From Saprospiraceae bacterium (GTDB lineage Bacteria; Bacteroidota; Bacteroidia; Chitinophagales; Saprospiraceae): a DNA stretch of 64,000 nucleotides. The notes under the pieces are model-generated. The model worked only from the letters and a program-made list of their open reading frames with translations, ran no database searches and had not been told where the DNA came from. The translations under genes and the position numbers were made by a program. Location: positions 1-64,000 of the forward strand of contig WFXH01000102.1 of the NCBI GenBank assembly GCA_015490715.1, in the 5' to 3' direction. This document shows, piece by piece, positions 382 through 58,980 of the stretch (positions are counted from its first letter, which is position 1; each line of letters starts with the position of its first letter).

Positions 382-557
382 GAGTCTTTTATATAGAATG
401 GCGAAACATTTTATACATTTTAATAAAAATTTAACACTTGTACGGGATCGGAAAGAGTAGGGAAGTGGCAGCGCAGTGTGGGGGCATAGGCAGAGGGGTG
501 AGGATGTGGATTTCCTGCTGGATGGGCTTATTAGTGGTACGGGTGGAGGAGGTGCTG

Positions 558-565
558 TATCTTTG
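558..565 (+). promoter_or_regulatory. Bacteroidota -7 box before the monooxygenase
   Basis: TATCTTTG matches TAnnTTTG. Transcription would begin near 572, so the monooxygenase mRNA is nearly leaderless if ATG 572 is used and has a leader of about 9 nt if ATG 581 is used. No clear TTG -33 element is present. Confidence 0.5.
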
Positions 566-571
566 TCGTAA

Positions 572-1864
572 ATGGTGCGTATGCGCGACAGGGTGTTGAT
601 CATAGGAGCGGGGCCATCGGGGCTTACGACACTCAAGGCGCTTCTAGAGGTGGGCATTACCGATGTCAAGGCGGTCGATCGCAATGCCGATGTCGGAGGG
701 CTGTGGTTGGGCAAGGCGCGCAATCCGCTTTCGCCGGTCTACGATTCGTTGAACATCATCACTTCGAAGTCGCTATCGAGCTTTTCGGATTTTCCGATGC
801 CGAAGTCGTGGCCGCCGTACATACCGCATTATCAAGTGTGGGAGTACCACAAGCGCTATGCTGAGCACTTCAATCTCTACCCGTACATCCAATTTCGCAC
901 GGAGGTGCGCTCGGTGCGACGGCGTGGTGAGCGCGATTACGAGGTGGAATATGCCGATGGGCGTACGGAGCGCTTCGGATACGTAATTGTGGCCAATGGC
1001 CATCATTTTGAGCCGAACATCATCGATTTACCCGGCACCTTTGAGGGGGAGCTGTTGCACGCGCGCGATTACGTCAACCCATTGGAGTGGAAAGGTAAGC
1101 GGGTGCTCATCATCGGTGCGGGCAACAGTGGTTGCGACATTGCTGCTGACGCATGCAAATACGCTGCTGTGACGCATATGAGTTTGCGGCGCGGGTATTA
1201 CATCATTCCCAAGTTTTCGTTTTTCGGATTGCCTTCGGACTACGTATATCAGAAGACGCTGGCGTGGTTGCCCGATTTTCTCAAAAAGCCCTTGGCTCGG
1301 TGGTCGTTGCAATTTTTTCTCGGCAAGTCGTGGAGCAACGGTATGCCCAAGCCCGATCACGACATCTTTGAGACGCATCCGTTGGTCAATACCGAGTTGT
1401 ACTATTTCATCAAGCACAATCGCATTGGAATTAAGCCCGCGATACAAGACATAGAGGGCAAGCGTATCCGGTTTGTCGATGGCAGCAGTGCGGAGTACGA
1501 TGTGGTGGTGATGGCTACGGGGTATGTTCTTTCTTTTCCGTTTTTGGATCGGCAGATGGTGGCTACGTTTTACAAGGAAGACGGCATTTACTTGTACCGA
1601 TTGATCTTTCATCCGCAATATGAGGACTTGTTTTTTGTAGGGCTCATTCAGCCCGACGGCAATCTCTGGATATTGTCGGAATTGCAGGCTAAGTTGATTG
1701 CGCGCAAGCTCACGGGTGCGTATTCCTTGCCGTCGGATGTGGAGGAGCAGGTACGCAGGGAGGTCGAGGAGCGTCGGAGGAAATACGTCCACTCGCGGCG
1801 CCATCTCATTGAGGTGGATCTCTATCGGTATCGGAAGGCGCTTCTTAAAATGTTGCGTTCATGA
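572..1864 (+). CDS. Flavin-containing monooxygenase (FMO family)
   Basis: FAD- and NADPH-dependent monooxygenase, 430 aa. The first Rossmann motif GAGPSG is at residues 12-17 (FAD), the FMO signature FxGxxxHxxxY reads FEGELLHARDY at 157-167, the second motif GAGNSG at 182-187 binds NADPH, and ATGY is at 315-318. The Tyr that ends the signature, rather than Trp, favours an N/S-oxygenating FMO over a Baeyer-Villiger enzyme. The substrate cannot be told. The start is 572 or 581; both lie directly after a -7 box. The stop overlaps the next ATG (ATGA), so the downstream dehydrogenase is translationally coupled and may act on the same substrate. Confidence 0.88.
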   Translation: MVRMRDRVLIIGAGPSGLTTLKALLEVGITDVKAVDRNADVGGLWLGKARNPLSPVYDSLNIITSKSLSSFSDFPMPKSWPPYIPHYQVWEYHKRYAEHFNLYPYIQFRTEVRSVRRRGERDYEVEYADGRTERFGYVIVANGHHFEPNIIDLPGTFEGELLHARDYVNPLEWKGKRVLIIGAGNSGCDIAADACKYAAVTHMSLRRGYYIIPKFSFFGLPSDYVYQKTLAWLPDFLKKPLARWSLQFFLGKSWSNGMPKPDHDIFETHPLVNTELYYFIKHNRIGIKPAIQDIEGKRIRFVDGSSAEYDVVVMATGYVLSFPFLDRQMVATFYKEDGIYLYRLIFHPQYEDLFFVGLIQPDGNLWILSELQAKLIARKLTGAYSLPSDVEEQVRREVEERRRKYVHSRRHLIEVDLYRYRKALLKMLRS

Positions 1865-2685
1865 GCGGGAGTGGTGCGGTGGTGTGTATTACGGGATGTG
1901 GTAGTGGTATAGGCCGCCACTTAGCGGAGCGTTTTTATCGGCGCGGATACCGCGTCGTGTGTACGGATCGTGCGGTCGAACGCCTGGACTATGCGTTGGG
2001 ATGGGAACGCGGGCGGGTGAGCGTCATGGCGTTGGATGTGACGCGGAGGGAGGATTGGCAGCGGTGTATGAAGCAGGTAGGCGAACGCTGGGGGCGATTG
2101 GACGTATTGATCAACAATGCCGGCGTGTTGGATACGGATTTTTTTCATGAAATCGCGGATCTGGATGTGGTCGACATACAGATCGATGTCAATCTCAAGG
2201 GGCCCATTTATGGGATGCACTATGCATTGCCCCTGTTGCGTAAAAGCCTTTCACCAGTGGTCATCAACATTTCGTCGTTGGCGGGGGTGGCGCCTATCCC
2301 GGGTATGAGCATCTATACGGCATCCAAGTACGGACTGCGGGGGTTTACTCTGGCGGTGGCCACGGAGTTGGATCGCTTAGGCATACGGGTGTACAATGTC
2401 TCTCCGGATGCGGTGCGCACGCCGTTGATTGAGGGTGTGCGTCACAAGTCGGCGAGCAATTTGCTCTATTCTGGGGTGTTGTTGAGTGTTGAGGATATTG
2501 AGCGTGTGGTCTTTCGCCTTCTGCGGAGGCCTCGGCGGCGGGAGGTACTCTTGCCGTGGTGGCGGGCCTTGCTTGCGCATTTTGCCAATTGCTTTCCGTA
2601 TTGGTCGAAGGGTGTAGCTCGGCTCTTGGATGCGAAGGGTGAAAAAAAGCGGAAGCAGCTGGCAGCTCGAAACGGGGAGCATTAG
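1861..2685 (+). CDS. Short-chain dehydrogenase/reductase (SDR)
   Basis: Classical NAD(P)-dependent SDR oxidoreductase, 274 aa. The cofactor motif TGCGSGIG is at residues 11-18, NNAG at 85-88, the catalytic Ser in NISS at 137-139, and YxxxK as Y152/K156. PDAVRTP follows at the usual place for cofactor contact. The C-terminal 60 residues are basic and hydrophobic (LLPWWRALLAHFANCF), which may let it sit on a membrane. It shares a 4-nt ATGA overlap with the upstream monooxygenase. A foldback repeat follows at 2693-2785 before the convergent glycosyltransferase. Confidence 0.88.
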   Translation: MSGSGAVVCITGCGSGIGRHLAERFYRRGYRVVCTDRAVERLDYALGWERGRVSVMALDVTRREDWQRCMKQVGERWGRLDVLINNAGVLDTDFFHEIADLDVVDIQIDVNLKGPIYGMHYALPLLRKSLSPVVINISSLAGVAPIPGMSIYTASKYGLRGFTLAVATELDRLGIRVYNVSPDAVRTPLIEGVRHKSASNLLYSGVLLSVEDIERVVFRLLRRPRRREVLLPWWRALLAHFANCFPYWSKGVARLLDAKGEKKRKQLAARNGEH

Positions 2686-2692
2686 GGACATG

Positions 2693-2785
2693 GGCGCCAG
2701 CGATTTCATACCCCAGTCAATGAAGTGCCGCACTTCGGGACCGTGTTGGGGCATTAATCGGGTCGTATGTATGAAATGGTGCGCC
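2693..2785. repeat. Foldback element built from two inverted GTATGAAAT motifs
   Basis: The left arm has GGCGCC (2693-2698) and ATTTCATAC (2703-2711). The right arm has GTATGAAATGGTGCGCC (2769-2785). Between them, CCCCA (2711-2715) can pair with TGGGG (2747-2751), and GAAGTG/CACTTC (2722-2736) forms an inner hairpin. The element fills the gap between two convergent genes, where a two-way terminator would be expected, but it has no T-run. Confidence 0.65.
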
Positions 2786-2823
2786 AAGGTCGGATGGAGA
2801 GATTGGAGTAGGTAGGCAGGGGG

Positions 2824-4193: not shown

Positions 4194-4350
4194 GGCCGAT
4201 ATGCTGTGGACGAATGGTCGAATAGTAATAGTTGTAACAATCGATAGTTGTTGAGTGTTTGAAGCGTGGCGGTTTTTGCCAAAAGAGGCATTGCAGAGGG
4301 ACGGATTGTTGGTTAGGGTGGGCCTGTATAGGCGAGGGGCATAGCGGTGA

Positions 4351-4380
4351 ACGATTTTATATGGTGCAGAAATTTTATAC
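4351..4380. repeat. Two direct copies of the ATTTTATAY motif
   Basis: ATTTTATAT (4354-4362) and ATTTTATAC (4372-4380) lie 18 bp apart in the 192-nt gap between the ZIP gene and the small gene, reading as ATATAAAAT and GTATAAAAT on the transcribed strand. They belong to the dispersed GTATRAAAT family. Confidence 0.5.
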
Positions 4381-4385
4381 AAATA

Positions 4386-5105
4386 CTAAAAATGGTGAAA
4401 GAGCAGGCCGAGGGCGATACCCACAAAGATGAATAAGGTGACGACGCTATCGGGGTGGTGATGGTCTTCTTGATCGATTTCATACAGGATGGTCGTAGAT
4501 ATTTGGAGGAGCAGGCCTGTGACGATGGCAAAGAGGAAGAGCTGCCAGTGATAGGGGAAGAACTGGGAGAGGATAGCACCCATCGGCGTGCTCAGGGCAA
4601 AGATGCTCAAAGCGACGGCAAAAGCGGTGAGGGACATAGAACTTCCACGCAAGAGGGCTCCTAAGACGAGTGCTGCGGGGATTTTATGCATGATGATGGC
4701 CCAGAGCAGGGAATGGGTGGATCCTGCAAGCATGTGTGTGTGTTCGGTTTCGCCTATGTGTAGGGGAAATCCCTCGATGAGTGCGTGAAGGAGGAGTCCC
4801 AGATAGAGCACCTTCCATCGGCCCGTAGGTAGATGGAGGTGGACATGGCTGTGTTCTAAGCCCGAGCTAAAGCGGGAGAGAAAAAACTGCGATACGAATC
4901 CCAAGAGTACGAAGAGGCCGATATCGCGTTGGCCGTGGTAGGGCAGGGCGGGAAGGAGTTCGAAAAACACAATGCTCATGATAAAGGCTGCCCCAAAAGC
5001 GAGAAAGTATCGTACCCTTTTGCGGAAGGGTTCGGGGAGCCACCAACCGGCTATTCCGCCAACCAGTGCACTTACTATCAACAATATGTAATAACCAGTG
5101 GTCAT
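4386..5105 (-). CDS. ZIP family divalent metal transporter
   Basis: Integral membrane metal (zinc-type) transporter, 239 aa, with about eight hydrophobic segments starting MTTGYYILLIVSALVGGIAG. The ZIP metal site is visible as HALIEGFPLHIG and, one helix later, IIMHKIPAALVLGALL; a His-rich loop (HSHVHLHL) precedes it, as usual in this family. I chose ATG 5105 because it makes an ATGA overlap with the PAP2 gene; the open frame upstream of it is Arg/His-rich and lacks membrane character. Import of Zn2+ is the usual family role; specificity is not shown by the sequence. Confidence 0.85.
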   Translation of the reverse strand: MTTGYYILLIVSALVGGIAGWWLPEPFRKRVRYFLAFGAAFIMSIVFFELLPALPYHGQRDIGLFVLLGFVSQFFLSRFSSGLEHSHVHLHLPTGRWKVLYLGLLLHALIEGFPLHIGETEHTHMLAGSTHSLLWAIIMHKIPAALVLGALLRGSSMSLTAFAVALSIFALSTPMGAILSQFFPYHWQLFLFAIVTGLLLQISTTILYEIDQEDHHHPDSVVTLFIFVGIALGLLFHHF

Positions 5106-6989: not shown

Positions 6990-9900
6990 TTAGGGGGCGC
7001 GTATTAAGACGAGCCGTCCCACTTGGATCGTCCTATCGGCGTGGGAGAGGCGGAAGAGGTAGGTTCCGGAAGGTAAGTTGTCGGGAAGTTTTATGCTATA
7101 TGTAGCGCGCTCTTCGTAGATCGGCAGCACGTATTGGTAGATGAGCTGGCCGTGGAGGTCGTACAGGGTCCAGTCGTAGCTGCCGGGGGCAGGTGATGTC
7201 GTTTCGAGGTAGATCTGCCCATAGCATGGATTGGGGAAGATGCGGTGGAGAGTGGGCGTGTCGTTTGTCGCAGGGCAGGGGACTACTTCGATGCGATCAG
7301 TTTCGAACTGCGTATTTACGGAGAGCGGTGTCAGTGCGGCTTCATCGATGAAGATCTCTGGTGGTACTTGGGATGCGATGAGGATTGTAAAGAGCGTGTC
7401 GGTGCTTGTACATTCGACCGGGTGAGCGGCATTCCAGGCGATGAATACCCTGTGGTCGACGATGTGGTGATACTCGTCCACTAATGGGAGGGTTACAGGC
7501 AAGATGGCGCGTATTGTGCCGGAGGATGTAAATAGGGATAGCTGTAAAGCGGAGGTGGGTTGGGTAGAAGTGCTGAAGAAGTGTACGGCGTAGAGCTCGT
7601 CGTCGACGCGTTGGGTGACGTAGTACCACTGCCATGTCGATTGGGGCTGGCTACGAGTTTTAATAAAATCGCCCGACACATCGCCCATTTTGATGCCTTT
7701 CCAGTGGATGGTGATGACGCTGTCCCGGGGGTTGGGCACGAAGTTATGGGTATTGGGATGCCTTCTGAGCGCATTGAGATCGTCGAAGTCGGTCGACGAG
7801 AGATAGAGTTTCCAGGAGGGGACGTGGCGAAAGCGGGACCATTTGTTGAGCAAGAGTTTTCGGATGATGCCGATATCTGCCACGGAGAGGTCGCCGCTGT
7901 TGTTGACATCGCCGGCAATGATTTGCCATGCCTTCGTGATCGGCCGAATGCCGAGGAGGTGATATTGGATGAGCTGCAGGTCGAGTACGGAAAGGCCTCT
8001 TAAGTATTGATGCTCATGGCGAAGGGTAATGGTATACTGTTGGCCCGGATGTTTTTGTACTCGTAGGTCGTACGGGCTGTTGTATTGGCCTGTGGCGAGT
8101 GTGTCGGGGCCGCGTGGGGTAGACCGCTGTACGACGATGTGTACACGACGGAGTGGTCGGCCCCCTAAGGAGGTGACGCTGCCGTGGAGACGTAGCAAGT
8201 GTCCATTGCAATGGTTATTGGCCTGGATTTGCACCTGGGCGGTACACGAGGCGATGTTGCCTGCCTCGTCACGGACATATACGGTCACCGTGGTGTCCAG
8301 TATGCGTTGTCCCTTGAGATCCGCACAGTTAAATTGGACGCTGTCGACGTACTGATTGGGGCGAAAGCTGTAGCGCAGGGCACTTGTATCGGTGCAGTTG
8401 TCGGAGCTTTGGAGTATGAAATGGTCGACGGGCAGCGTGATGGTCCCTGATTCGGGCATGATGACGGTGTTGATTTGATCGCGGCAATAGACGGTAGGAG
8501 GTTTGCAATCGCGTACGGTGATGCGTTGGGTACAGGTAGCGACATTGCCACAATCGTCTTCGACGCGCCATTCGACGCGATGGGTGCCGAGGGGTAGAAT
8601 GATCGTGCTATTGGTATAGGGATTCCAGTTGCTCCATTGGCCAGCTTGGTCGATATCTATTCGGTAGTACCATTTCATGGCCTCTTGAGGCGTGCAATCG
8701 TCTACAGCAGTGGGTTGGTAGACAAATTGACCGCTGCATGGGGATGCACTGCTCACGGTTTCATACAGACACAGTACAGTATCTCTACAAAAGGGGCTAT
8801 CGATTACGGGAGGTTGGGAGTTGACGACACGGATGATTTGCGTATCCTGCCATATGCCTGCAGTGTGTTTGTCGTACCGACACCAATCGATGACGGTCCA
8901 CTCGCGGGCAATGGTAAAGCAGGCCGAATCAGCCTGGTAGTAATAGCGGTCGGTGTAGGTGACCTGTACGTCTGCACAGCCCGTATTGCGCAGGGCGTAG
9001 GCGCTGTCGAGGCGCGTCGAGGTTGAGGGATCGAGCTCGGCATCGTCTGAGCAACTCAAGGTTATCGGCGGGTCGATGATATCTGCTGGCCAGTGGATGT
9101 CGGCCTCGGAAAAGGGATGACGGTTGACGAAGGTGATGCGCTGGATAGCCGAGTCGACATTGCCCGCAGGATCCGTCGCTGTAAAGCGCCGTATCAGCAC
9201 ACCGCTACCACAGTGCAACGAGTGCTGTATGCTTTCTTCCACGACGACACGATCGCAGTTGTCTATTACATAACCGTCCAATCCCATGTATTGGCGTCGG
9301 CCGTCGATGGTGAGAAAGATGCTATCACGCTGGTCGCGGTGCATGGCAATACGGCCGAATAGGGCAGCTGTACTGTCGATATCCCACGAAAAGTCGCAGG
9401 GAACGGTCATGTCGGGTGGCGGCACGATGCGCGGAGGCGTTTTGTCGTCGACGCGCACTTCGACCATGCAAACCGAGGAGTTGCCGGCGGCATCAAAGAC
9501 GGCGAGTTCGACCATGATGCGTTTGTCGGCATCATCACAGCAGAAGTGTATGGTGGGCGCAAAGTCGTTGGTAGAACTACAGGTGGATGCGCTGTCCACG
9601 CGTCGCGCTAAGAAGTGGTTAATGCCACAATTGTCCCGACTGCCGTCGTCTAAGGCTTGAGCATCTAAGATGTGTTGGCCATCGTCGGAGAGTGTGACCA
9701 CGGTGTGATTTTCGCAGACGATGTCGGGGGGGCGCCTATCGGCCACGTAAAACATTACAGTACAACTCGCCTTATTGCCGCAGTCGTCAACGATTTCATA
9801 CTCCAGCCAATGACAGCCCGTATCGAGTTGACTCAAGACGAATGGAGCTTCGTCGGGGCGGCGGTAATCTCCAACGAGACGCTTGTTACGTGGATCGGGC

Positions 9901-12332
9901 TGACAGGCATCATCGGGCCGATGAGCGATGTGGTAGATGCGGTATTTCCATTGTGAGCAGTGCTCTTCTACTTGTATCGGTGCAGAAGGGCTGTTGGGGA
10001 TTGGCACTTGATAGCTTGCGAAGCAATCATAGGGCGACACCGATGCGGTATCGTAGGCCAGAGTGTCTGAAGTGCAGAGCAATGAAGGGGCGGTTGTATC
10101 GGTGATGACGATGCGTTGGCTTGTGGACACCTTGCGCTGAGATGGTGGAGCACACCAGTCGATGACGGTCCAAGTGCGTAGGATTTTTTGAGTGCCACCG
10201 CAGGAGGGAATGAGGTGGTCTTCGTACGTGGCGTAGAGCCAGCTGCAACCGTTGGCAACGGGATAGCCCGTTACATCGGGGTGGGGGGTACCCTGATCGG
10301 TCGCCTTCCAGCTGTCGAGACAGTCGATTACGGTGTCGTGCAAGGGCTGCAGATCATCGGGGATGCGTGGGCGGATGATGCGTATGGTGTCGTTGCATCG
10401 GGTGTAGTTGCCCGAGGCATCGATAGCTTCCCATGTACGGACGATGGTTTTAAACGAATCTTCGCAGATGAAATCGTTGAGCACTTCGTCGCTGTAGCGG
10501 AGGCGCACCGTACCGCAGGAGTCCCAGTGGTCGACGAGGTATTCGTCGTCGGAAGCTGTGGGCGTGATGACGGCGCTATTGGGTAGGGGGAAGCCCAGCG
10601 CTTCGGGAGAAAGGTCTGCACTACAGCGCACTGTGTCGTTACCACAGCGTAGCGGTGGTATATATTTGTCTTCGATATAGAGGCGGCCGTGGCAGTAATT
10701 TTGCACACAGGTGTCGACTACCTTGAAGCGTATGGTGTCGCCGATGTATCGGCAGTCGATGACGGTGCCGGGGATGACGGAGCCATCGGGTGCGTAGAGC
10801 TCCAGCTTCCAGCACGGATTGGTGCCGCGGCCCTCGGTGAGGATTTCCAGGTCGAGCTCCACTTCTCCATCGGTATTGAGGGAGACGTTAAGGAGGTCGT
10901 TGCAGATGAGGTATGGGTTGATGGGGCCGGGCAGGGAGCTTGCACAGCTGGTACGATAGACTTCGACATCGCCGGGGCTGGTGTGCTCGACGATGGAATT
11001 GTCTAAGTCGATGAAGAAGTCCGTATAGGCGTTGCCGCGCATTATGGCGGTGACAGGAAGATTGCCGCTGGCATGAATACCCTGTACGCCGTAGTAAAAT
11101 CCTGGGCTGCTGTACAGAGTGGACATAAAGTTGGCCGTAGCCCACAACATCGAGTCGCATTGGGCATAGGGATTGGTGCTGCGCTGGAGATATCCGTAGT
11201 CGACACCTCCGGCGGCATTGGCTCCGTCGTAGCCGGGGAGGACGTTCCATCCACCCACGTAAAATTTCCTCCCCGACAATTGCCATCGGCCATTGCGCTG
11301 CACCATTTCGGTGACCCATGCGCGATTCGGATGGCCTCGTTCGGCAAGAGCCAATCGACCGTCTTCGGCAAAGGCCATATCCGTGATCCAAGAAGAGGCT
11401 GCCGTGATCGTATCGATGGCAAATTCGAACTGCTCTCCACCGGCATAGACGCCGTTGCGGTAGAGGGCGCGTCCACCAAAGTCGCCGTTGGACTGCAGTG
11501 GGATCGAATAAATGGCGTGTCCCGCATGCTGGGGATCGCGCCTACGGGCGAAGTACACGCGCGTCACACCATTGGAATCGGTGTGGATGGCGATGCCCCA
11601 CACTTGCTCCTCTTCAATAGTAATGCCCTTGCTGCCGTCGTCTAAGGCAAAGGGATCGTAGACGCTGACTACTTGTGCTGGACTGCGCTTGAGATCGATA
11701 CGGTAAATACGCCCGTCTTCCAGGTTGGTTGCAAAAAGTTGGTGGTGTTCGACATCGTAGGCGATGTTACCAATGCCGTTTCCCCGGCCTCCCGTATTGG
11801 GTATAGTCGTCGACGGCAGCGGCGGTAATACCGACGTATCGACGGTATGGATGAGTATGTGTATGTTGGCGGCATGCTCTCCATCGGCACGGTAGATGCC
11901 CGCCGGCCCGGCAGGTCCGACTTGTTGGGTGTGCGCTATGGGATAGATGTTGCTGAGCGAATACACATCGCTGGCTCCAAAGTAAACATTGCCCATGCTG
12001 TCGAAGGCAAGTCCGAAGACCTGCCCCATATTGGCCAGTGTCCACGTGGGCGGAGTGCGGACGATCGACGGATCATCGACACACCAGTCCTTGCCCCTGG
12101 GTGCCCTACCTGTCTTGCGCGTGTCGTACAGCTCGGCTACCGTATTCGACAGGTTATCTGTCGCCGCAAAATGCGTCACCACCATCATCCCCCGATGAAT
12201 GGTCTGCCCGTAGCTGAAGGAAAGATACTGCGCAATACACCACACCATTAATATAAGTATGGCCGTACTTCGCACTGTTGGATGGAAGCGGATGGGCACG
12301 AGATAAGTCCTATGCCGTGGTGCTAAGCGCAT
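6990..12332 (-). CDS. Giant secreted cysteine-rich repeat protein, T9SS cargo
   Basis: 1780-aa predicted surface or released protein. A signal peptide ends near residue 43 (LSFSYGQ). Residues of about 50-480 look like a propeller of NHL or six-bladed type (FGLAFDSMGNVYFGA, NIAYDVEHHQLFATN). The middle (about 550-1400) is a tandem array of Cys-rich HYR/Ig-like modules with recurring WTVIDWC, DDCGN and DAAGN/DPAGN motifs. A dockerin-like Ca2+ loop (GDVNNSGDLSVADIGIIRKLLL, split over about 1470-1492) follows, and the last 80 residues (FPNPCYGQIYLE... to LPSGTYLFRLSH) form a type A T9SS sorting domain. A role in adhesion or polymer binding is inference from module types. It is transcribed divergently from the ribosomal operon. 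Confidence 0.85.
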   Translation of the reverse strand: MRLAPRHRTYLVPIRFHPTVRSTAILILMVWCIAQYLSFSYGQTIHRGMMVVTHFAATDNLSNTVAELYDTRKTGRAPRGKDWCVDDPSIVRTPPTWTLANMGQVFGLAFDSMGNVYFGASDVYSLSNIYPIAHTQQVGPAGPAGIYRADGEHAANIHILIHTVDTSVLPPLPSTTIPNTGGRGNGIGNIAYDVEHHQLFATNLEDGRIYRIDLKRSPAQVVSVYDPFALDDGSKGITIEEEQVWGIAIHTDSNGVTRVYFARRRDPQHAGHAIYSIPLQSNGDFGGRALYRNGVYAGGEQFEFAIDTITAASSWITDMAFAEDGRLALAERGHPNRAWVTEMVQRNGRWQLSGRKFYVGGWNVLPGYDGANAAGGVDYGYLQRSTNPYAQCDSMLWATANFMSTLYSSPGFYYGVQGIHASGNLPVTAIMRGNAYTDFFIDLDNSIVEHTSPGDVEVYRTSCASSLPGPINPYLICNDLLNVSLNTDGEVELDLEILTEGRGTNPCWKLELYAPDGSVIPGTVIDCRYIGDTIRFKVVDTCVQNYCHGRLYIEDKYIPPLRCGNDTVRCSADLSPEALGFPLPNSAVITPTASDDEYLVDHWDSCGTVRLRYSDEVLNDFICEDSFKTIVRTWEAIDASGNYTRCNDTIRIIRPRIPDDLQPLHDTVIDCLDSWKATDQGTPHPDVTGYPVANGCSWLYATYEDHLIPSCGGTQKILRTWTVIDWCAPPSQRKVSTSQRIVITDTTAPSLLCTSDTLAYDTASVSPYDCFASYQVPIPNSPSAPIQVEEHCSQWKYRIYHIAHRPDDACQPDPRNKRLVGDYRRPDEAPFVLSQLDTGCHWLEYEIVDDCGNKASCTVMFYVADRRPPDIVCENHTVVTLSDDGQHILDAQALDDGSRDNCGINHFLARRVDSASTCSSTNDFAPTIHFCCDDADKRIMVELAVFDAAGNSSVCMVEVRVDDKTPPRIVPPPDMTVPCDFSWDIDSTAALFGRIAMHRDQRDSIFLTIDGRRQYMGLDGYVIDNCDRVVVEESIQHSLHCGSGVLIRRFTATDPAGNVDSAIQRITFVNRHPFSEADIHWPADIIDPPITLSCSDDAELDPSTSTRLDSAYALRNTGCADVQVTYTDRYYYQADSACFTIAREWTVIDWCRYDKHTAGIWQDTQIIRVVNSQPPVIDSPFCRDTVLCLYETVSSASPCSGQFVYQPTAVDDCTPQEAMKWYYRIDIDQAGQWSNWNPYTNSTIILPLGTHRVEWRVEDDCGNVATCTQRITVRDCKPPTVYCRDQINTVIMPESGTITLPVDHFILQSSDNCTDTSALRYSFRPNQYVDSVQFNCADLKGQRILDTTVTVYVRDEAGNIASCTAQVQIQANNHCNGHLLRLHGSVTSLGGRPLRRVHIVVQRSTPRGPDTLATGQYNSPYDLRVQKHPGQQYTITLRHEHQYLRGLSVLDLQLIQYHLLGIRPITKAWQIIAGDVNNSGDLSVADIGIIRKLLLNKWSRFRHVPSWKLYLSSTDFDDLNALRRHPNTHNFVPNPRDSVITIHWKGIKMGDVSGDFIKTRSQPQSTWQWYYVTQRVDDELYAVHFFSTSTQPTSALQLSLFTSSGTIRAILPVTLPLVDEYHHIVDHRVFIAWNAAHPVECTSTDTLFTILIASQVPPEIFIDEAALTPLSVNTQFETDRIEVVPCPATNDTPTLHRIFPNPCYGQIYLETTSPAPGSYDWTLYDLHGQLIYQYVLPIYEERATYSIKLPDNLPSGTYLFRLSHADRTIQVGRLVLIRAP

Positions 12333-13091: not shown

Positions 13092-13559
13092 ATGCGAAGA
13101 AAACGACCAAAGCCAAGAGTCATACCGCCGGATCCCGTCTACAACGATCCGATGGTCATGAAATTTATCAACAACATCATGCGTCGAGGGAAGAAGGCCC
13201 TTGCCATGCGCATCTTTTACGATGCCATGGACATCATCAAAAAGCGCACGGACGAAAATCCCTACGAAATTTGGAAAAAGGCCCTCGAAAACGCCACTCC
13301 GTACTTGGAGGTGCGTTCGCGGCGTATTGGTGGAGCGACCTTTCAGATACCGACTGAAATCCCTGAAAACCGCCGTATCTCGATTGGTATGAAATGGTTG
13401 ATACAATACGCCAAGCAGCGCCACGGCAAGGGAATGTCGGAAAAACTCGCCGCCGAAATCATCGCCGCATCCAACAACGAAGGCGGAGCCGTCAAGCGCA
13501 AAAACGAAATGCATCGTATGGCCGAAGCCAACCGCGCCTTTGCGCACTTTAGAGTGTGA
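13092..13559 (+). CDS. rpsG: 30S ribosomal protein S7
   Basis: Primary 16S rRNA 3'-domain binder, 155 aa. It starts MRRKRPKPRVIPPDP and contains MVMKFINNIMRRGKK and the conserved GGATFQIPTEI region. It lies 16 nt after rpsL. The coding sequence includes an exact copy of the dispersed GTATGAAATGGT motif at 13387-13398 (codons of GMKWL). Confidence 0.98.
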   Translation: MRRKRPKPRVIPPDPVYNDPMVMKFINNIMRRGKKALAMRIFYDAMDIIKKRTDENPYEIWKKALENATPYLEVRSRRIGGATFQIPTEIPENRRISIGMKWLIQYAKQRHGKGMSEKLAAEIIAASNNEGGAVKRKNEMHRMAEANRAFAHFRV

Positions 13560-16090: not shown

Positions 16091-16110
16091 TTTTGGTAGT
16101 ATAAAATGGT
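16091..16110 (+). repeat. 20-bp repeat, copy 1 (inverted partner at 19991)
   Basis: TTTTGGTAGTATAAAATGGT in the rpsJ-rplC gap, seven bases before the rplC GTG. Its exact reverse complement lies at 19991-20010 between rpsC and rplP. It carries the long form GTATAAAATGGT (16099-16110) of the dispersed motif. Confidence 0.8.
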
Positions 16111-18835: not shown

Positions 18836-19264
18836 ATGGAAGCAAAAGCCATCTTGAGAAATTGTCCCATGTCGGCGCGCAAAATGCGACTCGTCGCCGA
18901 TATCGTCCGCGGCAAAGAGGTCACCGATGCGCTCTATACCCTCAAGTTTACGCGAAAGAAGGCCGCCTCCATCCTCGAAAAACTCCTCCTATCCGCCGTG
19001 GCGAACTGGGAATACAAAAACGACAATACCGTCGATGCCGACGACTATAAACTCATCATCAAAAAACTCCTCGTCGATCAAGCCACTCCCCTCAAGCGCT
19101 TTCGACCAGCGCCCATGGGTCGGGCTATGCCCTACAAAAAACACCGCTGCCACATCACCATCGTCATCGAAAATAAAGTGCCACTGCCCACCGAACAGGA
19201 GCAGTCCGAACAAGTAGCCGAGACAGTGTCCGAAGAAACCGCAGAAAAGACAGATGAACAATAA
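18836..19264 (+). CDS. rplV: 50S ribosomal protein L22 with acidic tail
   Basis: 142 aa, longer than the usual 110-115. The core (RNCPMSARKMRLVADIVRG... PMGRAMPYKKHRCHITIVI) is normal, including the tunnel-lining hairpin. After about residue 118 a Glu/Gln/Thr-rich tail (EQEQSEQVAETVSEE) is added. Its stop region overlaps the inverted motif pair at 19264-19281. Confidence 0.96.
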   Translation: MEAKAILRNCPMSARKMRLVADIVRGKEVTDALYTLKFTRKKAASILEKLLLSAVANWEYKNDNTVDADDYKLIIKKLLVDQATPLKRFRPAPMGRAMPYKKHRCHITIVIENKVPLPTEQEQSEQVAETVSEETAEKTDEQ

Positions 19265-19281
19265 TTTCATACGTATAAAAT
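19264..19281. repeat. Abutting inverted pair of dispersed motifs before rpsC
   Basis: ATTTCATAC (19264-19272) is followed directly by GTATAAAAT (19273-19281), an 18-bp near-perfect palindrome with one mismatched pair, ending eight bases before the rpsC ATG. Confidence 0.65.
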
Positions 19282-19990: not shown

Positions 19991-20010
19991 ACCATTTTAT
20001 ACTACCAAAA
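19991..20010 (-). repeat. 20-bp repeat, copy 2 (inverted partner at 16091)
   Basis: ACCATTTTATACTACCAAAA, the exact reverse complement of 16091-16110, five bases after the rpsC stop and immediately before the internal promoter box at 20026. Confidence 0.8.
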
Positions 20011-28355: not shown

Positions 28356-28382
28356 TTTTGAGCTGTATAAAATCTTTCATCT

Positions 28383-33376: not shown

Positions 33377-34551
33377 TGGCGAAGGGAAAGGTGGGCATCA
33401 TCGGTGCAGGGACGATGGGGGCAGGCATTGCCCAAGTAGCTGCCCTCGCTGGTCATCGCGTTGTACTCATCGATATTTTACAAGACCAGTTAAATCGTGC
33501 ACAGAAGACGATCCACCATTTCATACAGAGAGCCGTAGAAAAGGGCAAGCTCTCCGAGCATGTCGCCGAGGCGGCCCTTGCATCATTGAGTTACACCACC
33601 GATTATAATGTGCTCACCGATGCCGTGTTGGTCATCGAAGCTGTCGTCGAAGACGAAGGGGTCAAAGCAGCCGTGTTGGAGGAGGTGTCCGGGCACGTAA
33701 GTCAGGAGTGCATCATTGCGACCAACACTTCATCGCTATCGGTGACGGCACTTTCGAGGAATGTGTCGGCACCAGAGCGTTTTCTGGGGCTGCACTTTTT
33801 CAATCCCGCCCCACTGATGGCATTGGTTGAAGTGGCTCCGACAGTAGCAACCTCTGAAGTGGTGTGTCGTCGTGCCGAACAGATGATGCGCGACTGGGGA
33901 AAGGAGGCGGTGCGTACGCAGGATTTGCCCGGGTTTATCGTCAATCGCATAGCGCGCCCCTATTACGGCGAAGCGCTTTGTATCGTCGAAGAGCGCCTCG
34001 CCACGGTTGAGCAGGTCGATCGCGCCATGAAATCGATCGGCGGCTTCCGCATGGGCCCCTTCGAACTGATGGATCTCATCGGACTGGATGTCAACTACGC
34101 GGTCTCCGAACAGGTCTTCCAAGCCTTTTACTATGATCCACGATATCGCCCATCGCTCTTGCAGAAGAAGATGGTCGAGGCTGGGTGGCTCGGCAAGAAG
34201 ACAGGGAAGGGGTTTTACACCTACGCATCGGAGCCCCCTGTGCCTACGCTATCGTGGCCCGTTCAACAGCCTATTGGCGATGAGGAGATCTTTATGCGCA
34301 TCCTATCGATGTTGATCAACGAGGCAGCTGATGCCGTAGTACGGGGGGTAGCCTCGAAAGAAGATGTCGAAACAGCGATGACGCGTGGGGTCAATTACCC
34401 TAAGGGATTGCTCCACTGGGCCGATGAAATCGGCATTCGTACGGTCGTCCGCCAACTGGATGCCCTTTTTGAGCGCTATCGCGACATGCGGTACCGATGT
34501 AGTCCGCTATTGCGCCAGATGGCGGCGAAGGATGCGCGTTTTTTTCATTGA
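33376..34551 (+). CDS. paaH: 3-hydroxyacyl-CoA dehydrogenase, PaaH-like
   Basis: 391-aa NAD-dependent dehydrogenase; in the phenylacetate pathway the homologue oxidises 3-hydroxyadipyl-CoA. N-terminal Rossmann motif [15 protein letters not shown], catalytic His in [17 protein letters not shown], then the C-terminal dimer domain with [16 protein letters not shown] and a second, shorter repeat ([13 protein letters not shown]). The TGATG overlap shows it is translationally coupled to the PaaG-like gene, and the pair is the last two steps before thiolysis. Confidence 0.88.
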
Positions 34552-34611: not shown

Positions 34612-34671
34612 ATAAAATGGGACGAATGAATCCGTGGAACCATTTTAGCGGTGTGTTTGGTGGTATGAAAT
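34612..34671. repeat. Cluster of three dispersed-motif copies in the tdh leader
   Basis: ATAAAATGG (34612-34620), the inverted CCATTTTA (34640-34647) and GTATGAAAT (34663-34671). The first two can pair with each other over about seven bases. All lie between the promoter and the tdh ATG. Confidence 0.5.
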
Positions 34672-38298: not shown

Positions 38299-38951
38299 CC
38301 CTGCGATTGGCGAAAGTCGCGGAGAAACTTTTCGAGACCAATATCGGTCAGGGGGTGTTTAAACAGCCCCTTGATCGAGGCCAGTGGGCAGGTGACGATG
38401 TCGGCTCCAGCTTTTGCGGCTTCGACGATGTGGCGGGCACTGCGGATCGAGGCTGCCAACACTTCGGTTTCAAAGCCCTGGATTTCGTAGATTTCGACGA
38501 TTTCTTCGATGAGCGCGATGCCGTCCCAGGTGATGTCGTCGATGCGTCCGATGAAGGGACTGACATAAGTGGCACCGGCCTTGGCTGCCAGTAGTGCTTG
38601 CCCCGCCGAAAAGACCAGAGTGCAGTTGGTGGGAATGCCTTCGTCGCGCAATGCGCTCAGGGCCTTAACTCCATCGGGTATCATCGGTATTTTGACTACT
38701 ATGCGGCGATCGATAGAAGCGAGGGCCTTTGCTTCGGCCATCATCGAGTCGTAATCGGTACTGATGACCTCCGCACTGACTGGCCCGTCGACGAGTTCGC
38801 AAATCTTCCGGTAGTGCTCGCGTATAGCTTCCTCCCCTTTGATGCCCACTTTGGCCATGAGACTGGGATTGGTCGTCACGCCATCTAAAATGCCCAGCTG
38901 CTTGGCCTCTTTGATTTCGTCTATATTGGCCGTATCGATGAAAAATTTCAT
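38295..38951 (-). CDS. tal: Transaldolase, short (MipB/TalC) type
   Basis: 218-aa TIM-barrel aldolase moving a dihydroxyacetone unit between sugar phosphates in the pentose phosphate pathway; fructose-6-phosphate aldolase is the alternative in this subfamily. [20 protein letters not shown] and [11 protein letters not shown] open it, and the Schiff-base lysine is K87 in RRIVVKIPM. Start ATG 38951 rather than 38957. The start codon lies inside an exact GTATGAAAT motif copy (38945-38953). Confidence 0.92.
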
Positions 38952-38972
38952 ACTCAAACAGTTATTTCTTCA

Positions 38973-42716: not shown

Positions 42717-42736
42717 GTATGAAATGGTTGGCTCCG
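42717..42736 (+). repeat. Dispersed motif copy, long form, between fadA and queG
   Basis: GTATGAAATGGTTGGCTCCG, matching the extended consensus GTATGAAATGGTTGGCGCC in all but one of the first nineteen bases. It is followed by a small hairpin CGCC/GGCG. It lies in the 63-nt gap between convergent genes. Confidence 0.6.
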
Positions 42737-43803: not shown

Positions 43804-46092
43804 TCAATTGAGGATCTGGAGGCGAGCAAATTTGAGCATGATGCGCTTGGGTGGGCCGGGGATTTCGTCAAACTTGATGGTGGCGACGCGTTTGTCGCGC
43901 ACGCCGTCGATGGTGAGGACTTTTCCCACGCCGAATTGTAGGTGCAGCACGCGTTGGCCGGTGCGCACTTCTTCGGGAGGGCTTGGTGTAAATGATTGGG
44001 GGTCGATTTTGACGGCTGGGGAGCGCTGTTGGGGAGGAGTACCCGAAATTTTAGCGCGAGGCGCGGTGACGAAATGCTCTTGTATGTCGGGGATGACTTT
44101 GACCTTGCCCACGGGAAATTCGATGGATTCTTCAGGGAGTTCGCGGATAAAACGACTGGGTTCGTTGTATACCTGGCGTCCCCAGAGGTACCGCGATTCG
44201 GCGTGACTGAGGATGAGGAAGCGCTTTGCACGGGTGATGGCTACGTAAAAGAGCCGGCGTTCTTCTTCGATCTCGCGTGGATTGTGGATCGTCTGAAAGC
44301 TGGGGAATAGATTTTCTTCCAGTCCGACGACAAAGACGGCTTCAAACTCGAGGCCCTTGGCGGAGTGGACGGTCATGAGGCTGACGTAGTCGGCATCATC
44401 GTCTTTGAGGTCGATATCCGTCAGCAGGGCGATGTGTTGGAGATAGCTGTATAGGGAGCGGTCGTCGACTTCTGCTCCGTAGGGCACTTCTTCGGCTTCG
44501 ACGAATTCCTTGATGCCGTCGAGGAGGGCGAGGACGTTTTGGAGGCGTTCGACGCCTTCGGTGGAGTCGTCGCGCTTGAGTTCGCGCTCTAAGCCAGAGA
44601 GTTTAAAAGCGCGATACGCCACGGTGTAGGCGTCTTCGGTTTGGGCGAGCTTGTGGAGGCGTTGGATAAGATGGGACAATTCGGCGGCGGCTTTGTGGGC
44701 TTTGGTGGGCAGGGCTGCTTCGTGCATCGCTCGCCACATGCTGATGCCGTGACTGCGCGCAAAGTCGAGTATGCGCTCGACACTTGCCTTGCCGATGCCC
44801 CGCTTGGGGTAGTTGATGACGCGCTTGAGCGCTTCGCTGTCGTGGGGGTTGACGATGAGGCGCAGGTAGGCGAGCATGTCTTTGACTTCCTTGCGCTGGT
44901 AGAAGGTGATGCCGCCAAAGATTTTATACGGAATATTCAGCCTTCGGAGGTATTCTTCGAAGACGCGAGACAGGGCATTCATGCGGTAGAGCACGGCGAT
45001 ATCCCTGTAGCGGAGGTGGTAGCGGTCGCATATTTCCTGGATTTTTTGCGCTACGCGCCTGCCCTCTTCGCCTTCGTTGGTATTGGTCATGATGTGGATC
45101 TTAGCTCCTTCGCCCCTATCGGTCCAGATGGACTTTTCGATTTGGCGGCGGTTGTAGGAGATGAGCTTGTTGGCCGCTTGGACGATGTGAGCGGTGGAGC
45201 GGTAGTTTTGTTCGAGTTTGATGACTTTGACGTTGTGGTAGTCTTTTTGGAAGCTGAGGATGTTGCTGATGTCGGCGCCGCGAAAGGCGTAGATACTCTG
45301 GGCGTCGTCGCCGACGATGCAGATGTTTTCGGGGCTTTCGGGGTAGAGGGTGAGCTTTTTGAGTATGCGGTATTGGAGGTGGTTGGTGTCTTGAAATTCG
45401 TCGACGTGTGTGTATTGAAAGAGCTGGCGGTATTTGTCGAGCACGTCGGGGTGGGCGTCGAGGAGGTGGTAGAAGTAATAGAGCAGGTCGTCGAAGTCCA
45501 TGGCCGCTGCACTGCGGCAGTATTCGACGTATTTGTGGTAGATGAGGTAGGTATGCGGGCGCCGGCTGGCCTCATCGGCCTGACGCAGACGCGGTATGCG
45601 CTCGTATTCTTCGGGGGAGATGAGACGCGACTTGGCGAGGGAGATGCGCGTGCGGAGGGCATTGGGAGCATATACCTGTGGGTCGAGTTTGAGCTCCTGG
45701 AGGATTTCGCGGATGAGGTTTTTGCTGTCTTCGGTGTCGTAAATCGTAAAGTGCGAGGGATAACCGATGCGGTGTGCCTCGCGTCGCAAGATGCGAGCAA
45801 ATACGGAGTGGAAGGTGCCCATCCACAGGCTATTGGCCTGGGGCCCAACGAGGGCGGTGATGCGCTCGCGCATCTCTCGTGCCGCCTTGTTGGTAAACGT
45901 CAGCGCCAAAATGCGGTGGGGCTGCACGTTACGCCGTAGCAAGTGCGCTATGCGATACGTCAATACCCGCGTCTTTCCCGATCCAGGCCCCGCTATGACC
46001 ATGACGGGCCCTTCGGTGGCCTCTACCGCCTCGCGCTGCCGCGGATTGAGATCTCGCAAAAAGTCCATCTCCTCCATCAGAGCTGCAAGCAT
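43804..46092 (-). CDS. pcrA: ATP-dependent DNA helicase UvrD/PcrA family
   Basis: 762-aa superfamily 1 3'-5' helicase for repair and replication restart. Q motif and Walker A: LNPRQREAVEATEGPVMVIA then GPGSGKTRVL; motif II VDEFQDTN, motif III GDDAQSIYAFRGAD, motif IV EQNYRST, motif V MTVHSAKGLEFEAVFVVGLE and motif VI VAITRAKRFL. The C-terminal Tudor-like part (VLHLQFGVGKVLTIDG) is that of PcrA. ATG 46092 is chosen over 46107 because a TAATTTTG -7 box at 46105-46112 overlaps the earlier ATG. Confidence 0.95.
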   Translation of the reverse strand: MLAALMEEMDFLRDLNPRQREAVEATEGPVMVIAGPGSGKTRVLTYRIAHLLRRNVQPHRILALTFTNKAAREMRERITALVGPQANSLWMGTFHSVFARILRREAHRIGYPSHFTIYDTEDSKNLIREILQELKLDPQVYAPNALRTRISLAKSRLISPEEYERIPRLRQADEASRRPHTYLIYHKYVEYCRSAAAMDFDDLLYYFYHLLDAHPDVLDKYRQLFQYTHVDEFQDTNHLQYRILKKLTLYPESPENICIVGDDAQSIYAFRGADISNILSFQKDYHNVKVIKLEQNYRSTAHIVQAANKLISYNRRQIEKSIWTDRGEGAKIHIMTNTNEGEEGRRVAQKIQEICDRYHLRYRDIAVLYRMNALSRVFEEYLRRLNIPYKIFGGITFYQRKEVKDMLAYLRLIVNPHDSEALKRVINYPKRGIGKASVERILDFARSHGISMWRAMHEAALPTKAHKAAAELSHLIQRLHKLAQTEDAYTVAYRAFKLSGLERELKRDDSTEGVERLQNVLALLDGIKEFVEAEEVPYGAEVDDRSLYSYLQHIALLTDIDLKDDDADYVSLMTVHSAKGLEFEAVFVVGLEENLFPSFQTIHNPREIEEERRLFYVAITRAKRFLILSHAESRYLWGRQVYNEPSRFIRELPEESIEFPVGKVKVIPDIQEHFVTAPRAKISGTPPQQRSPAVKIDPQSFTPSPPEEVRTGQRVLHLQFGVGKVLTIDGVRDKRVATIKFDEIPGPPKRIMLKFARLQILN

Positions 46093-46169: not shown

Positions 46170-46293
46170 GTAGTATGAAATGGTGCTGTACATTTTTGTA
46201 CACGAAAACTGTCGTCTATCGAGGACATGGGGTCTATATCGGTGAAAAACCCTTCGGGATACTTTGATGGCGCCGACCAACCATTTCATACCC
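46170..46293. repeat. 124-bp element bounded by inverted GTATGAAATGGT copies
   Basis: GTATGAAATGGT (46173-46184) and its reverse complement ACCATTTCATAC (46280-46291) are perfect 12-bp terminal inverted repeats about 95 bp apart. Inside are the hairpin TGTACA-TTTT-TGTACA (46187-46202) and a GGCGCC (46269-46274) next to the right arm, as in the element at 2693. It fills the gap between pcrA and the membrane protein at 46303. Confidence 0.65.
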
Positions 46294-50210: not shown

Positions 50211-51839
50211 TCAATACAAGACGGCAAACGCTCGCGAGCGAATCTCGTAATCGTTTCCCAGTATAAAATAGTACACGCCTTTGGGCAGTGGTGGCAGGGA
50301 TAGGGTATAGCTGTGGACATCTTTTAAGAGAGGGTAAAAATCCGAATGGACGAGTACTCTACCCCTTGTATCGACAATGCGCGCGAAATGCCGCCCGTAG
50401 GTAGGTGTGTTAAAAAGGACGTATACCTGGTGGGGCATTGGAGAATAAAATTGAAGTATTTCCAATTGCGTAGGCCCGTCGTGGCAATATTGGGACTTAA
50501 TGTGGCTAAAGATGCGATAGAGGTTTAGCTTACCCCCGGAGAGCAGTCGATTTTGCAGTGTTGCTATGGGCTCTGCGTTTCGTAGGATGAGGTCTTTGAC
50601 ATATCGCGCAGCGCTATCTGGAGAGGCCTTTAGGTGAGCGATATGGTCATTGCATCGCACGGTATAGATGAGTTGTATTGCGCCACTGACAAAGGGAGAG
50701 GCGTAGGATGTACCTGTCCCTGCATCGTACGGGGATCCCGATCCGTAGGAGGTGCTCCAGATGGATTTGCCGGGCGCGCCGATGTCGATGGATTTTTTGC
50801 CGTAGGCAGCGTTGTCGATGATCTGGCTGCTCTGGTTGAGGGCGGTGACGCATATGAGATAGGGCGAGGTACAAGCACAGGGTAGATCACCTTCAACATC
50901 GACATCGACATCGAGATTGGCAGTAGAAGCGACGGTCAGCACGCCCTCGTGTCCGAGGCTGTCGATGATGGCACAGATAAGGGGAAACTCATCTTGTCTG
51001 GCGCGCTCTCTACCGAGTGAGAAGTTGATACCCACGACATAGGCCCCCACCTGGCCGTCGGTGCGATTGTACAGTTGGCGTTGATGCCATACGTATTCGA
51101 GTGCGGCATAGAGGTCGGCGTCTTGTATTTGGTTGCTCTTTCCGAGGGAGACGAGCAGTAGCTGGCCGTTCCAGTTGACGCCCGTGATGCCGATACCGTT
51201 ATTGCCCCTTGCAGCGATGATGCCTGCTACGCGCGTACCGTGTCGGTGTTTGTAGAGCTTGTCGTTGGCGGTGGTGAGGTTGTAGCCGAGATAGTCGTCT
51301 ACATAGCCGTTGTTGTCGTTGTCGATGCTATCGTCCGGTATTTCGGCGGTGTTGCGATAGATGGCCTCTTGAAGGTCTTCGTGTGTCCAGTCAAATCCGG
51401 CGTCGATGACGGCGATAAGGGGCACAGGTGTGTCGGCAATACCCGTACTCAAGTCCCATGCCCGCGGAGCTTCGATATCGCGAAGCCCCCATTGCAGGTC
51501 AAACATCGGATCATCGGGCTGTCGGCGGAGCTCGAGTGAGCCGTTTTTCTGTGCACGACAAACGGCGGGCAGCGATCGAAGTCGTTCTAGAAGTGTTGTG
51601 TCGAGTCCCCCTTCAACAACGATTTCATATATGGGCGTAAATCTTCCGATCTTTTTCCATCGGAGTGTTTGGTAGGCTGTATGCGTATTTCGGGTATGAA
51701 ATTGTGCGAGCAGGTCTTCTATTTGGGCACCGGGGCAAAGACGGACGAGCACCGAATGTTGGCTGTAGAGACCTTGCGCGGTGAGCAGTAGAGTAGCGGT
51801 GAAAAAAAATATTCGGGTTAGGGGATACCTGTAGAGCAT
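50211..51839 (-). CDS. Secreted subtilisin-like serine protease (S8), probable T9SS cargo
   Basis: 542-aa protease. The signal peptide is MLYRYPLTRIFFFTATLLLT plus AQGLYSQ, which fixes the start at 51839. A propeptide-like region (about 25-115) precedes the catalytic domain: Asp in VIDAGFDWTHEDL, His in HRHGTRVAGIIAA, Ser in GTGTSYASPFVSG. An acidic EF-hand-like stretch DDSIDNDNNGYVDDYLG lies between Asp and His. The final 80 residues (IVDTRGRVLVHSDF... LPKGVYYFILGN) look like a T9SS sorting domain. Last gene of the minus-strand run starting at dcd, 34 nt after ribA. Confidence 0.88.
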   Translation of the reverse strand: MLYRYPLTRIFFFTATLLLTAQGLYSQHSVLVRLCPGAQIEDLLAQFHTRNTHTAYQTLRWKKIGRFTPIYEIVVEGGLDTTLLERLRSLPAVCRAQKNGSLELRRQPDDPMFDLQWGLRDIEAPRAWDLSTGIADTPVPLIAVIDAGFDWTHEDLQEAIYRNTAEIPDDSIDNDNNGYVDDYLGYNLTTANDKLYKHRHGTRVAGIIAARGNNGIGITGVNWNGQLLLVSLGKSNQIQDADLYAALEYVWHQRQLYNRTDGQVGAYVVGINFSLGRERARQDEFPLICAIIDSLGHEGVLTVASTANLDVDVDVEGDLPCACTSPYLICVTALNQSSQIIDNAAYGKKSIDIGAPGKSIWSTSYGSGSPYDAGTGTSYASPFVSGAIQLIYTVRCNDHIAHLKASPDSAARYVKDLILRNAEPIATLQNRLLSGGKLNLYRIFSHIKSQYCHDGPTQLEILQFYSPMPHQVYVLFNTPTYGRHFARIVDTRGRVLVHSDFYPLLKDVHSYTLSLPPLPKGVYYFILGNDYEIRSRAFAVLY

Positions 51840-52498: not shown

Positions 52499-52882
52499 TT
52501 AATGCCATTTGAGGGTCGTCGACCCAAATTTCAAGCCGAGCCAAACACCTAAAATACAACTTAGCAGACTCAAACTAATGTATTGCAGGGCTTTGGCCCA
52601 GAGGTTTTGATGCACAAGGGAATAGTTTTCAAATGCAAAGGTCGAAAACGTGCTAAATCCGCCGCAAAATCCGACGATAGCGAAAGCGTACCAGTGTCGA
52701 CTGTGCAAATGCCCCTGAATGGCGGGCAGCAACCACCATCCGAGTAAAAAACTGGCTGCAAAATTGGCGCCCAAGGTGCCCCAGGGCAGTCCCCACAGGC
52801 GAATGGTCGAAAGCCATTGGCCGAGCTGATAGCGAGCTAAACTGCCTAAGCCCCCTCCTATGAATATCAACAACCATTTCAT
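52499..52882 (-). CDS. crcB: Fluoride channel CrcB/FluC
   Basis: 127-aa four-helix membrane protein forming a dual-topology dimer that exports fluoride. GGGLGSLARYQLGQWL, GTLGANFAASFLLGW with the conserved Asn, and the break-helix GFCGGFSTFSTFAFE with the Phe box are all present. Its ATG falls inside an exact inverted copy of the dispersed motif (52873-52884), so its first codons are made from that repeat sequence. No fluoride riboswitch was recognised upstream. Confidence 0.93.
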   Translation of the reverse strand: MKWLLIFIGGGLGSLARYQLGQWLSTIRLWGLPWGTLGANFAASFLLGWWLLPAIQGHLHSRHWYAFAIVGFCGGFSTFSTFAFENYSLVHQNLWAKALQYISLSLLSCILGVWLGLKFGSTTLKWH

Positions 52883-52904
52883 ACTCAGAAAAGTCGATGC
52901 AATT

Positions 52905-54522: not shown

Positions 54523-54534
54523 CGTAAATTTACG
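54523..54534. promoter_or_regulatory. 12-bp palindrome between dcd and cinA
   Basis: CGTAAATTTACG, a perfect palindrome 18 nt upstream of the dcd ATG in the divergent dcd-cinA region. It contains TAAATTTA, one base from a -7 box on each strand, so it may be a promoter core, an operator or both. Confidence 0.35.
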
Positions 54535-54596
54535 CACCGCGAATTTAATCACATTGTGCTAACGACGAGGGAAGAGCGCTTCATATAAACCATCCA

Positions 54597-56533: not shown

Positions 56534-56538
56534 TTGGG

Positions 56539-58822: not shown

Positions 58823-58834
58823 GTATTGCCTCGA

Positions 58835-58842
58835 CAAAGATA
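58835..58842 (-). promoter_or_regulatory. Bacteroidota -7 box before purF
   Basis: TATCTTTG on the minus strand. A CAA on the plus strand at 58859-58861 could be the -33 TTG at 16-nt spacing, shorter than usual. Confidence 0.45.
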
Positions 58843-58914
58843 CGCTATTTGCAATGGACAAAGGGTGCAATGACGAGCGCACGCATACGCCCTTCAGAAA
58901 GAGGAGGTCTCATA

Positions 58915-58980
58915 AGTGGTATTGCCTAAAATATCTGTATGAAATGGTTAGCGCCGTGAAGAAATGATTAGGCGACCACT
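58915..58980. repeat. 66-nt stem-loop repeat element carrying the dispersed motif
   Basis: AGTGGT (58915-58920) pairs with ACCACT (58975-58980) and GCCTAA (58924-58929) with TTAGGC (58968-58973). The loop holds GTATGAAATGGTTAGCGCC (58937-58955), followed by a diverged second copy of GAAATGRTTAGSCG. This is the clearest folded single element of the family. Confidence 0.65.

Follow-up and report, generated by a model that had tools for sequence, protein, structure and literature searches.

Why should one short word recur again and again along an otherwise ordinary stretch of bacterial DNA? The window, i.e. the whole 64-kb stretch analysed here, comes from a 2.45-Mb Saprospiraceae genome in 115 contigs (G000) and contains 24 copies of GTATRAAAT on its two strands, 16 of them GTATGAAAT and eight GTATAAAAT. 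For a protein encoded in it, the closest named matches are from Saprospiraceae. A preliminary description of this DNA had listed 23 copies; all 23 positions were correct on recounting, and one GTATGAAAT copy, at 33518-33526 on the minus strand, had been overlooked. The 12-base form GTATRAAATGGT is indeed present repeatedly, with 11 copies rather than the 10 first reported. The proposed 19-base extension, in contrast, is not present in exact form: GTATGAAATGGTTGGCGCC has no copy in the window, and the bases past GGT are only weakly constrained. The most enriched 9-mer of the window is GTATGAAAT, with 16 occurrences for 0.5 expected. Rfam and tRNA searches of the window gave no matches.

Most of these copies are intergenic, as had been claimed, with slightly different numbers: instead of about 14 of 23, gene calls place 13 of the 24 between genes, three across a gene end and eight inside genes. 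The first are a GTATAAAAT copy at 408-416 (minus strand), intergenic, and a pair in a convergent spacer, made of GTATGAAAT at 2703-2711 (minus) and GTATGAAATGGT at 2769-2780 (plus). They are followed by an intergenic GTATAAAAT at 4372-4380 (minus) and by GTATGAAAT at 4477-4485 (minus) within a ZIP-transporter gene. A large secreted-protein gene harbours two copies conserved in the sister species, GTATGAAATGGT at 8414-8425 (plus) and GTATGAAAT(CGT) at 9793-9801 (minus); it spans 6990-12332 and codes for a protein of 1780 residues that matches a secretion-system C-terminal sorting domain and a HYR domain. The gene just upstream of that of EF-G contains GTATGAAATGGT at 13387-13398 (plus). Five copies belong to the ribosomal-protein operon: GTATAAAATGGT at 16099-16110 (plus), between two genes; GTATGAAAT at 19264-19272 (minus), at a gene end, which abuts GTATAAAAT(CGT) at 19273-19281 (plus) in the spacer to form an inverted pair; and two more spacer copies, GTATAAAATGGT at 19991-20002 (minus) and GTATAAAAT at 28365-28373 (plus). 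The overlooked copy sits within a gene, as GTATGAAATGGT at 33515-33526 (minus), and GTATGAAAT(TGT) at 34663-34671 (plus) is intergenic.

In the right-hand part of the window, the sister species has kept the following copies: GTATGAAAT at 38945-38953 (minus) and GTATGAAATGGT at 52873-52884 (minus), both at gene starts; GTATAAAAT at 44921-44929 (minus) within a UvrD-helicase gene; two intergenic GTATGAAATGGT copies at 46173-46184 (plus) and 46280-46291 (minus); and, within a subtilase gene, GTATAAAAT(AGT) at 50261-50269 (plus) and GTATGAAAT(TGT) at 51694-51702 (plus). The GTATGAAATGGT copies at 42717-42728 (plus), in a convergent spacer, and 58937-58948 (plus), in a divergent one, each read GTATAAAAT in the sister species, a change at R only.

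We sampled stretches of three genomes, their choice depending partly on 12-mer content: G000 (about 429 kb), that of the sister species, G001 (583 kb), and that of a member of another genus, G042 (439 kb). In the G000 sample GTATGAAAT is again the most enriched 9-mer (102 copies for 5.3 expected), and GTATRAAAT occurs 176 times, versus 7.7, 13.2 and 41.8 expected under Markov models of order 3, 4 and 5, the last of which itself already holds much of the motif. Similarly, GTATRAAATSGT was found 90 times, with 0.3 to 2.3 expected. The strong over-representation noted in the window, far above Markov expectation, thus extends across the genome sample, including by the third-order comparison that the preliminary description had named as a possible refutation. 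All 21 of the 21 G000 stretches carry GTATRAAAT, at 2 to 7 copies per 10 kb. In the whole genome we counted 243 copies of GTATRAAATGGT, 127 forward and 116 reverse, and none of its reversed control. Scaling up from the 429-kb sample gives roughly 1,000 copies of GTATRAAAT per genome, a figure that is only approximate because the stretches were picked partly by the presence of the 12-mer: the sample exceeds the whole genome by about 20% in its density of GTATGAAATGGT. A short specific word far above chance, genome-wide and on both strands, is what one looks for in a DNA uptake sequence, and GTATRAAAT is such a word.

In the aligned copies, positions -13 to -3 are rich in T; the core GTATRAAAT follows at 0-8, then SGT at 9-11 and a weak S two bases further on. 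No conservation was detected beyond about 16 bp in the aligned copies from G000, G001 and G042. The motif has the same shape in the three genomes, the copies of G042 having mostly G at R, mostly G after the core and a G before it. The common single-base variants of GTATGAAATGGT are confined to A at position 5, T or C at position 10 and T at position 11; the rest are nearly absent. The word is thus read sharply, with defined degenerate positions. Close pairs of motifs are three times commoner than chance and have no fixed geometry, with eight to nine each of the +/-, -/+ and same-strand arrangements. In G042, two perfect 24-bp palindromes, GTATGAAATGGTACCATTTCATAC (L138:3023 and L141:4581), consist of two abutting copies.

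With genes called by a simple gene finder, 72 of the 176 copies in the G000 sample are intergenic, 84 lie in genes and 20 on gene edges. This corresponds to 1.99 copies per kb between genes versus 0.21 per kb in genes (Fisher odds 9.3), and the intergenic enrichment seen in the window is therefore found in the sample as well, at about ninefold. Both densities far exceed their own background, the genic one about 11-fold. Of the copies in genes, 39 are on the same strand as the gene and 45 on the opposite one, and none uses the sense reading frame that gives a stop codon. Location both in and between genes, unlinked to promoters or terminators, is a further characteristic of uptake sequences that this motif displays.

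The copies are also maintained over time. The sister species aligns to 84 kb of the G000 sample at 88% DNA identity, and 24 of 26 aligned sites have retained GTATRAAAT, compared with 39% of random 9-mers in coding and 35% in intergenic DNA (p ~2e-8). The lack of conservation at orthologous sites that would have spoken against the motif was thus not observed; three bases differ within the kept copies, each of them at R. Such retention at orthologous positions in close relatives is another trait of uptake sequences. Between the sister genera, i.e. G000 versus G042, the positions differ in the ribosomal-protein operon: G000 has its copies in the spacers near 16099, 19264-19273, 19994 and 28365, and in G042 an inverted pair lies between the homologues of the genes at 25318-26688 and 26776-27576, which by their place in the operon code for SecY and methionine aminopeptidase. 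The word persists while its places turn over.

We surveyed GTATRAAATGGT in 149 relatives and then in 398 family members of 112 genera. It is above chance in only two genera, that of the window (g1; G000 and G001), with 242-243 copies per genome, and g42 (G042 and G201), with about 390-510. In the remaining genomes the counts barely differ from those of the reversed control. A tree of EF-G joins G000 and G042 with a support of 100/100.

Word counting in G029, a near relative devoid of GTATRAAATGGT, yielded another word, TTTGCCGAAAGGC, which is also dispersed on both strands. It has 278 copies in G029 and 861 in G191, of the same genus; 660 (G081), 390 and 478 in three genomes of genus g81; 167 and 322 (G197) in g38; 103 and 126 in g75; 227 in G217; 452 in G355; and tens in several more genera, for about zero in its reversed control. 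It is absent from the four genomes that carry the GTAT word (G000, G001, G042 and G201), and in other families of the order it is at chance level only. G070 has no exact TTTGCCGAAAGGC and 156 one-mismatch copies, versus one in the reversed control, and probably carries a one-base variant that would be a further dialect. A smaller excess of one-mismatch TTTGCCGAAAGGC was seen in G053, G058 and G063.

Are the two words related? Both have a T-rich left side and an RAAA block flanked by four and by three to four bases, which align as GTAT-RAAA-TSGT and TGCC-GAAA-GGC. What we observe is alternative words with a complementary distribution among related genera; as dialects, they would serve one system. 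On the basis of the shared T-tract, the RAAA block and their complementary distribution, TTTGCCGAAAGGC is likely a dialect of the same system as the GTAT word. We go no further than 'likely' because TTTGCCGAAAGGC contains a small hairpin (GCC-GAAA-GGC), is located mostly in coding DNA and was read in 140 kb, where its first nine bases, in both orientations, fell in coding DNA in 17 of 20 cases (G029). TTTGCCGAAAGGC occurs on several of the branches of the tree, which suggests that the GTAT word replaced it in the ancestor of g1 and g42, judging from a single gene tree in which many forks are weak.

The searches also returned words of other kinds. G042 has a second dispersed element, GTGTGTATTACAAANTGCAC, with 14 copies in 372 kb (L131-L149, e.g. 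L132:19565), which is absent from G000, G001 and G029 and is possibly the site of a regulator. A GATAATGAT word of G082 was dropped as a dispersed motif since it comes from one repetitive gene: more than 30 units lie on one strand at L290:280-3235, apparently within a single Asp/Asn-rich repetitive gene, which yields false motif signals. In other Bacteroidota, the ribosomal-operon loci yielded over-represented words that were either weak or repeated in tandem or locally.

We also looked for the machinery of transformation. ComEC, which a bacterium with uptake sequences should possess, was found in all 38 of the 38 genomes searched. A type IV pilus machine usually accompanies uptake sequences, without belonging to their definition. 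It appears to be missing here: no PilB/PilT-type ATPase scored over the cut-off in the motif-bearing G000, G001, G042 and G201. Strong matches to a type IV pilus or type II secretion ATPase (PF00437) were obtained for only two of the 38 Saprospiraceae searched, G058 and G063. In Riemerella anatipestifer, the DUF5689 protein RA0C_RS04920 and the beta-barrel protein RA0C_RS04915 are essential for transformation (PMC8459023). DUF5689 proteins are encoded by most of the Saprospiraceae, the motif-bearing genomes included. In G000 (L279) and G042 (L280), a gene for a protein of 909-917 residues is followed immediately by a DUF5689 gene. Between these genomes, identity is 55 and 57% for the two proteins. 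The first protein of the G042 pair has a weak match to a carboxypeptidase-regulatory-like domain, as does the Riemerella beta-barrel partner; this match and the gene arrangement suggest that it is a beta-barrel. In G042, ComEC is encoded about 17 kb from the gene pair. No PDB homologue was identified by sequence for the DUF5689 protein or its putative beta-barrel partner, and an AlphaFold model of the former (mean pLDDT 40) was set aside. The motif-bearing genomes thus resemble the Riemerella system (ComEC, DprA, DUF5689 and beta-barrel; PMC8459023) in having the adjacent pair and ComEC. Riemerella has no established uptake sequence of such a kind; the k-mers reported for it are A-rich runs, candidates of untested function (PMC7965970). 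As ComEC and DUF5689 are also present in most relatives that have neither word, the machinery does not predict the motif: it is necessary for the uptake hypothesis, but by itself it does not discriminate.

Uptake sequences, REP elements and sites of a global DNA-binding protein had all been offered for this motif, with no choice made between them. Of these, the idea of an uptake sequence is supported by the density of the motif, its placement on both strands, its one-sided T-tract, its conservation, the lack of strand bias and the pattern of apparent dialects in the family. We consider it probable that the motif belongs to a DNA uptake sequence system with dialects, outside the Neisseriaceae and Pasteurellaceae and operating without type IV pili. 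The sharpness of the word, the turnover of its places and its replacement within the family also point to a sequence of the DUS/USS type. In such a system, GTATRAAATSGT after a T-rich stretch would be the self tag of the window's genus, and TTTGCCGAAAGGC its equivalent dialect in other Saprospiraceae. Tagged double-stranded DNA would be bound better than untagged DNA by a receptor of the transformation machinery at the cell surface, and the tagged DNA would cross the outer membrane and then enter via ComEC. Recombination would spread the tag, which would accumulate where selection tolerates it and be renewed in place. As type IV pilus ATPases are absent from these genomes, uptake would proceed through the Bacteroidota beta-barrel/DUF5689 pair, with the specificity residing in that surface complex. 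The motif and its evolution are observed, while its action in uptake, the receptor role of the gene pair and the kinship of the two words are inferred.

The likeness to the known systems is close in several respects. As for the USS of Pasteurellaceae, there are about a thousand copies per genome, on both strands, with alternative types in subgroups (PMC1626085, PMC12616744). The differences are the sequence itself, the phylum, Bacteroidota, the lack of a detected type IV pilus ATPase and the much higher density between genes; in addition, uptake is a prediction here. The anatomy of the flank is comparable, since in the USS a short core likewise lies beside an AT-rich tract on one side. The DUS of Neisseriaceae (PMC3630211), too, are words of 10-12 bp at very high density, and the likeness extends to a short core held in common, to one-off copies in modest numbers, to a stop codon that in one frame restricts where the word can lie within genes and, probably, to dialects that track the phylogeny of a single family. 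However, their core is CTG rather than RAAA, and the sequences are unrelated. The receptor of the DUS is the type IV pilin ComP, and a different surface complex would be needed here. In addition, the divergence between the two Saprospiraceae motifs exceeds that among the dialects of Neisseriaceae.

Several observations count against the uptake reading. ComEC and DUF5689 in relatives with neither word are one, and the hairpin and mostly coding location of TTTGCCGAAAGGC another. To our knowledge, all known uptake sequences work with type IV pili, which seem to be lacking here. The ninefold intergenic excess is more extreme than any we know of in the DUS and USS; it would, however, follow from the AT-richness of the word and its stop codon in one frame.

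Among the alternatives, the motif could be the site of an abundant chromosome-organising protein, involved in nucleoid association, segregation or nucleoid occlusion, which would need many evenly spread sites and whose specificity would have changed between lineages. The occurrence of sites in every 20-kb stretch read, in both orientations, preferentially in spacers and conserved, is compatible with this idea. However, the site-specific chromosome organisers that we know of use fewer than the roughly 1,000 sharp 12-bp sites present here. Moreover, biased uptake and recombination would easily switch about 1,000 sites between relatives, a change that would be difficult for a cytoplasmic protein lacking such a drive. 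We therefore regard a DNA-binding protein of this kind as unlikely.

A Chi-like site, read by the RecBCD/AddAB-type enzyme of this lineage in DNA repair, appears far less plausible still. Chi sites are short, over-represented and different between bacterial groups, as are the words described here, but they are read on one strand, oriented with replication and found mostly in genes. A bias linked to replication had been suggested as a point to check; the two strands are equally represented on every contig, with no bias relative to gene orientation, and genes are depleted relative to spacers. The T-rich flank is no feature of any Chi site that we know of.

There is equally little to be said for a regulatory site, whether as a promoter element, as the target of a global transcription factor or within a terminator. 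The intergenic enrichment, the AT-richness and a slight likeness to a -10 box are in its favour. However, the motif is about as dense in convergent spacers (1.46 per kb) as in divergent ones (1.78 per kb), it occurs in both orientations in tandem spacers (2.23 per kb), and it exceeds expectation even inside genes. These spacer densities and orientations, together with the equality of the strands, disfavour promoter, terminator, Chi and replication-oriented readings alike. The different spacer positions in the ribosomal operons of sister genera also argue against regulation, and a terminator would require a hairpin plus a T-run, which the motif does not have.

A mobile repeat, i.e. a REP/BIME, a MITE or an IS end, is hardly credible: the copies are dispersed, intergenic and in some cases inverted pairs, including the G042 palindromes, but the flanks contain no element body or extended palindromic unit outside the core, the pairs have no fixed geometry and many copies lie in genes.

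We thus return to the uptake sequence. We know of sequence-tagged uptake in only two unrelated families, Neisseriaceae and Pasteurellaceae, both with type IV pili. A search of freely accessible published papers found no case of uptake sequences in Saprospiraceae or other Bacteroidota, the nearest being the Riemerella k-mer table (PMC7965970). On balance, we lean towards DNA uptake sequences having arisen independently a third time, in Bacteroidota, with two or more dialects, probably at least three, across a single family and a non-pilin receptor in the DUF5689/beta-barrel complex. If true, this would provide an independent case in environmental Bacteroidota, with word turnover across a large family. 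The selection behind self-tagging, the switch of an entire genome to another dialect and the nature of a tag-reading protein that is no pilin could then be studied. Transformability, along with a route of DNA entry, is also predicted for a family with few genetic tools.
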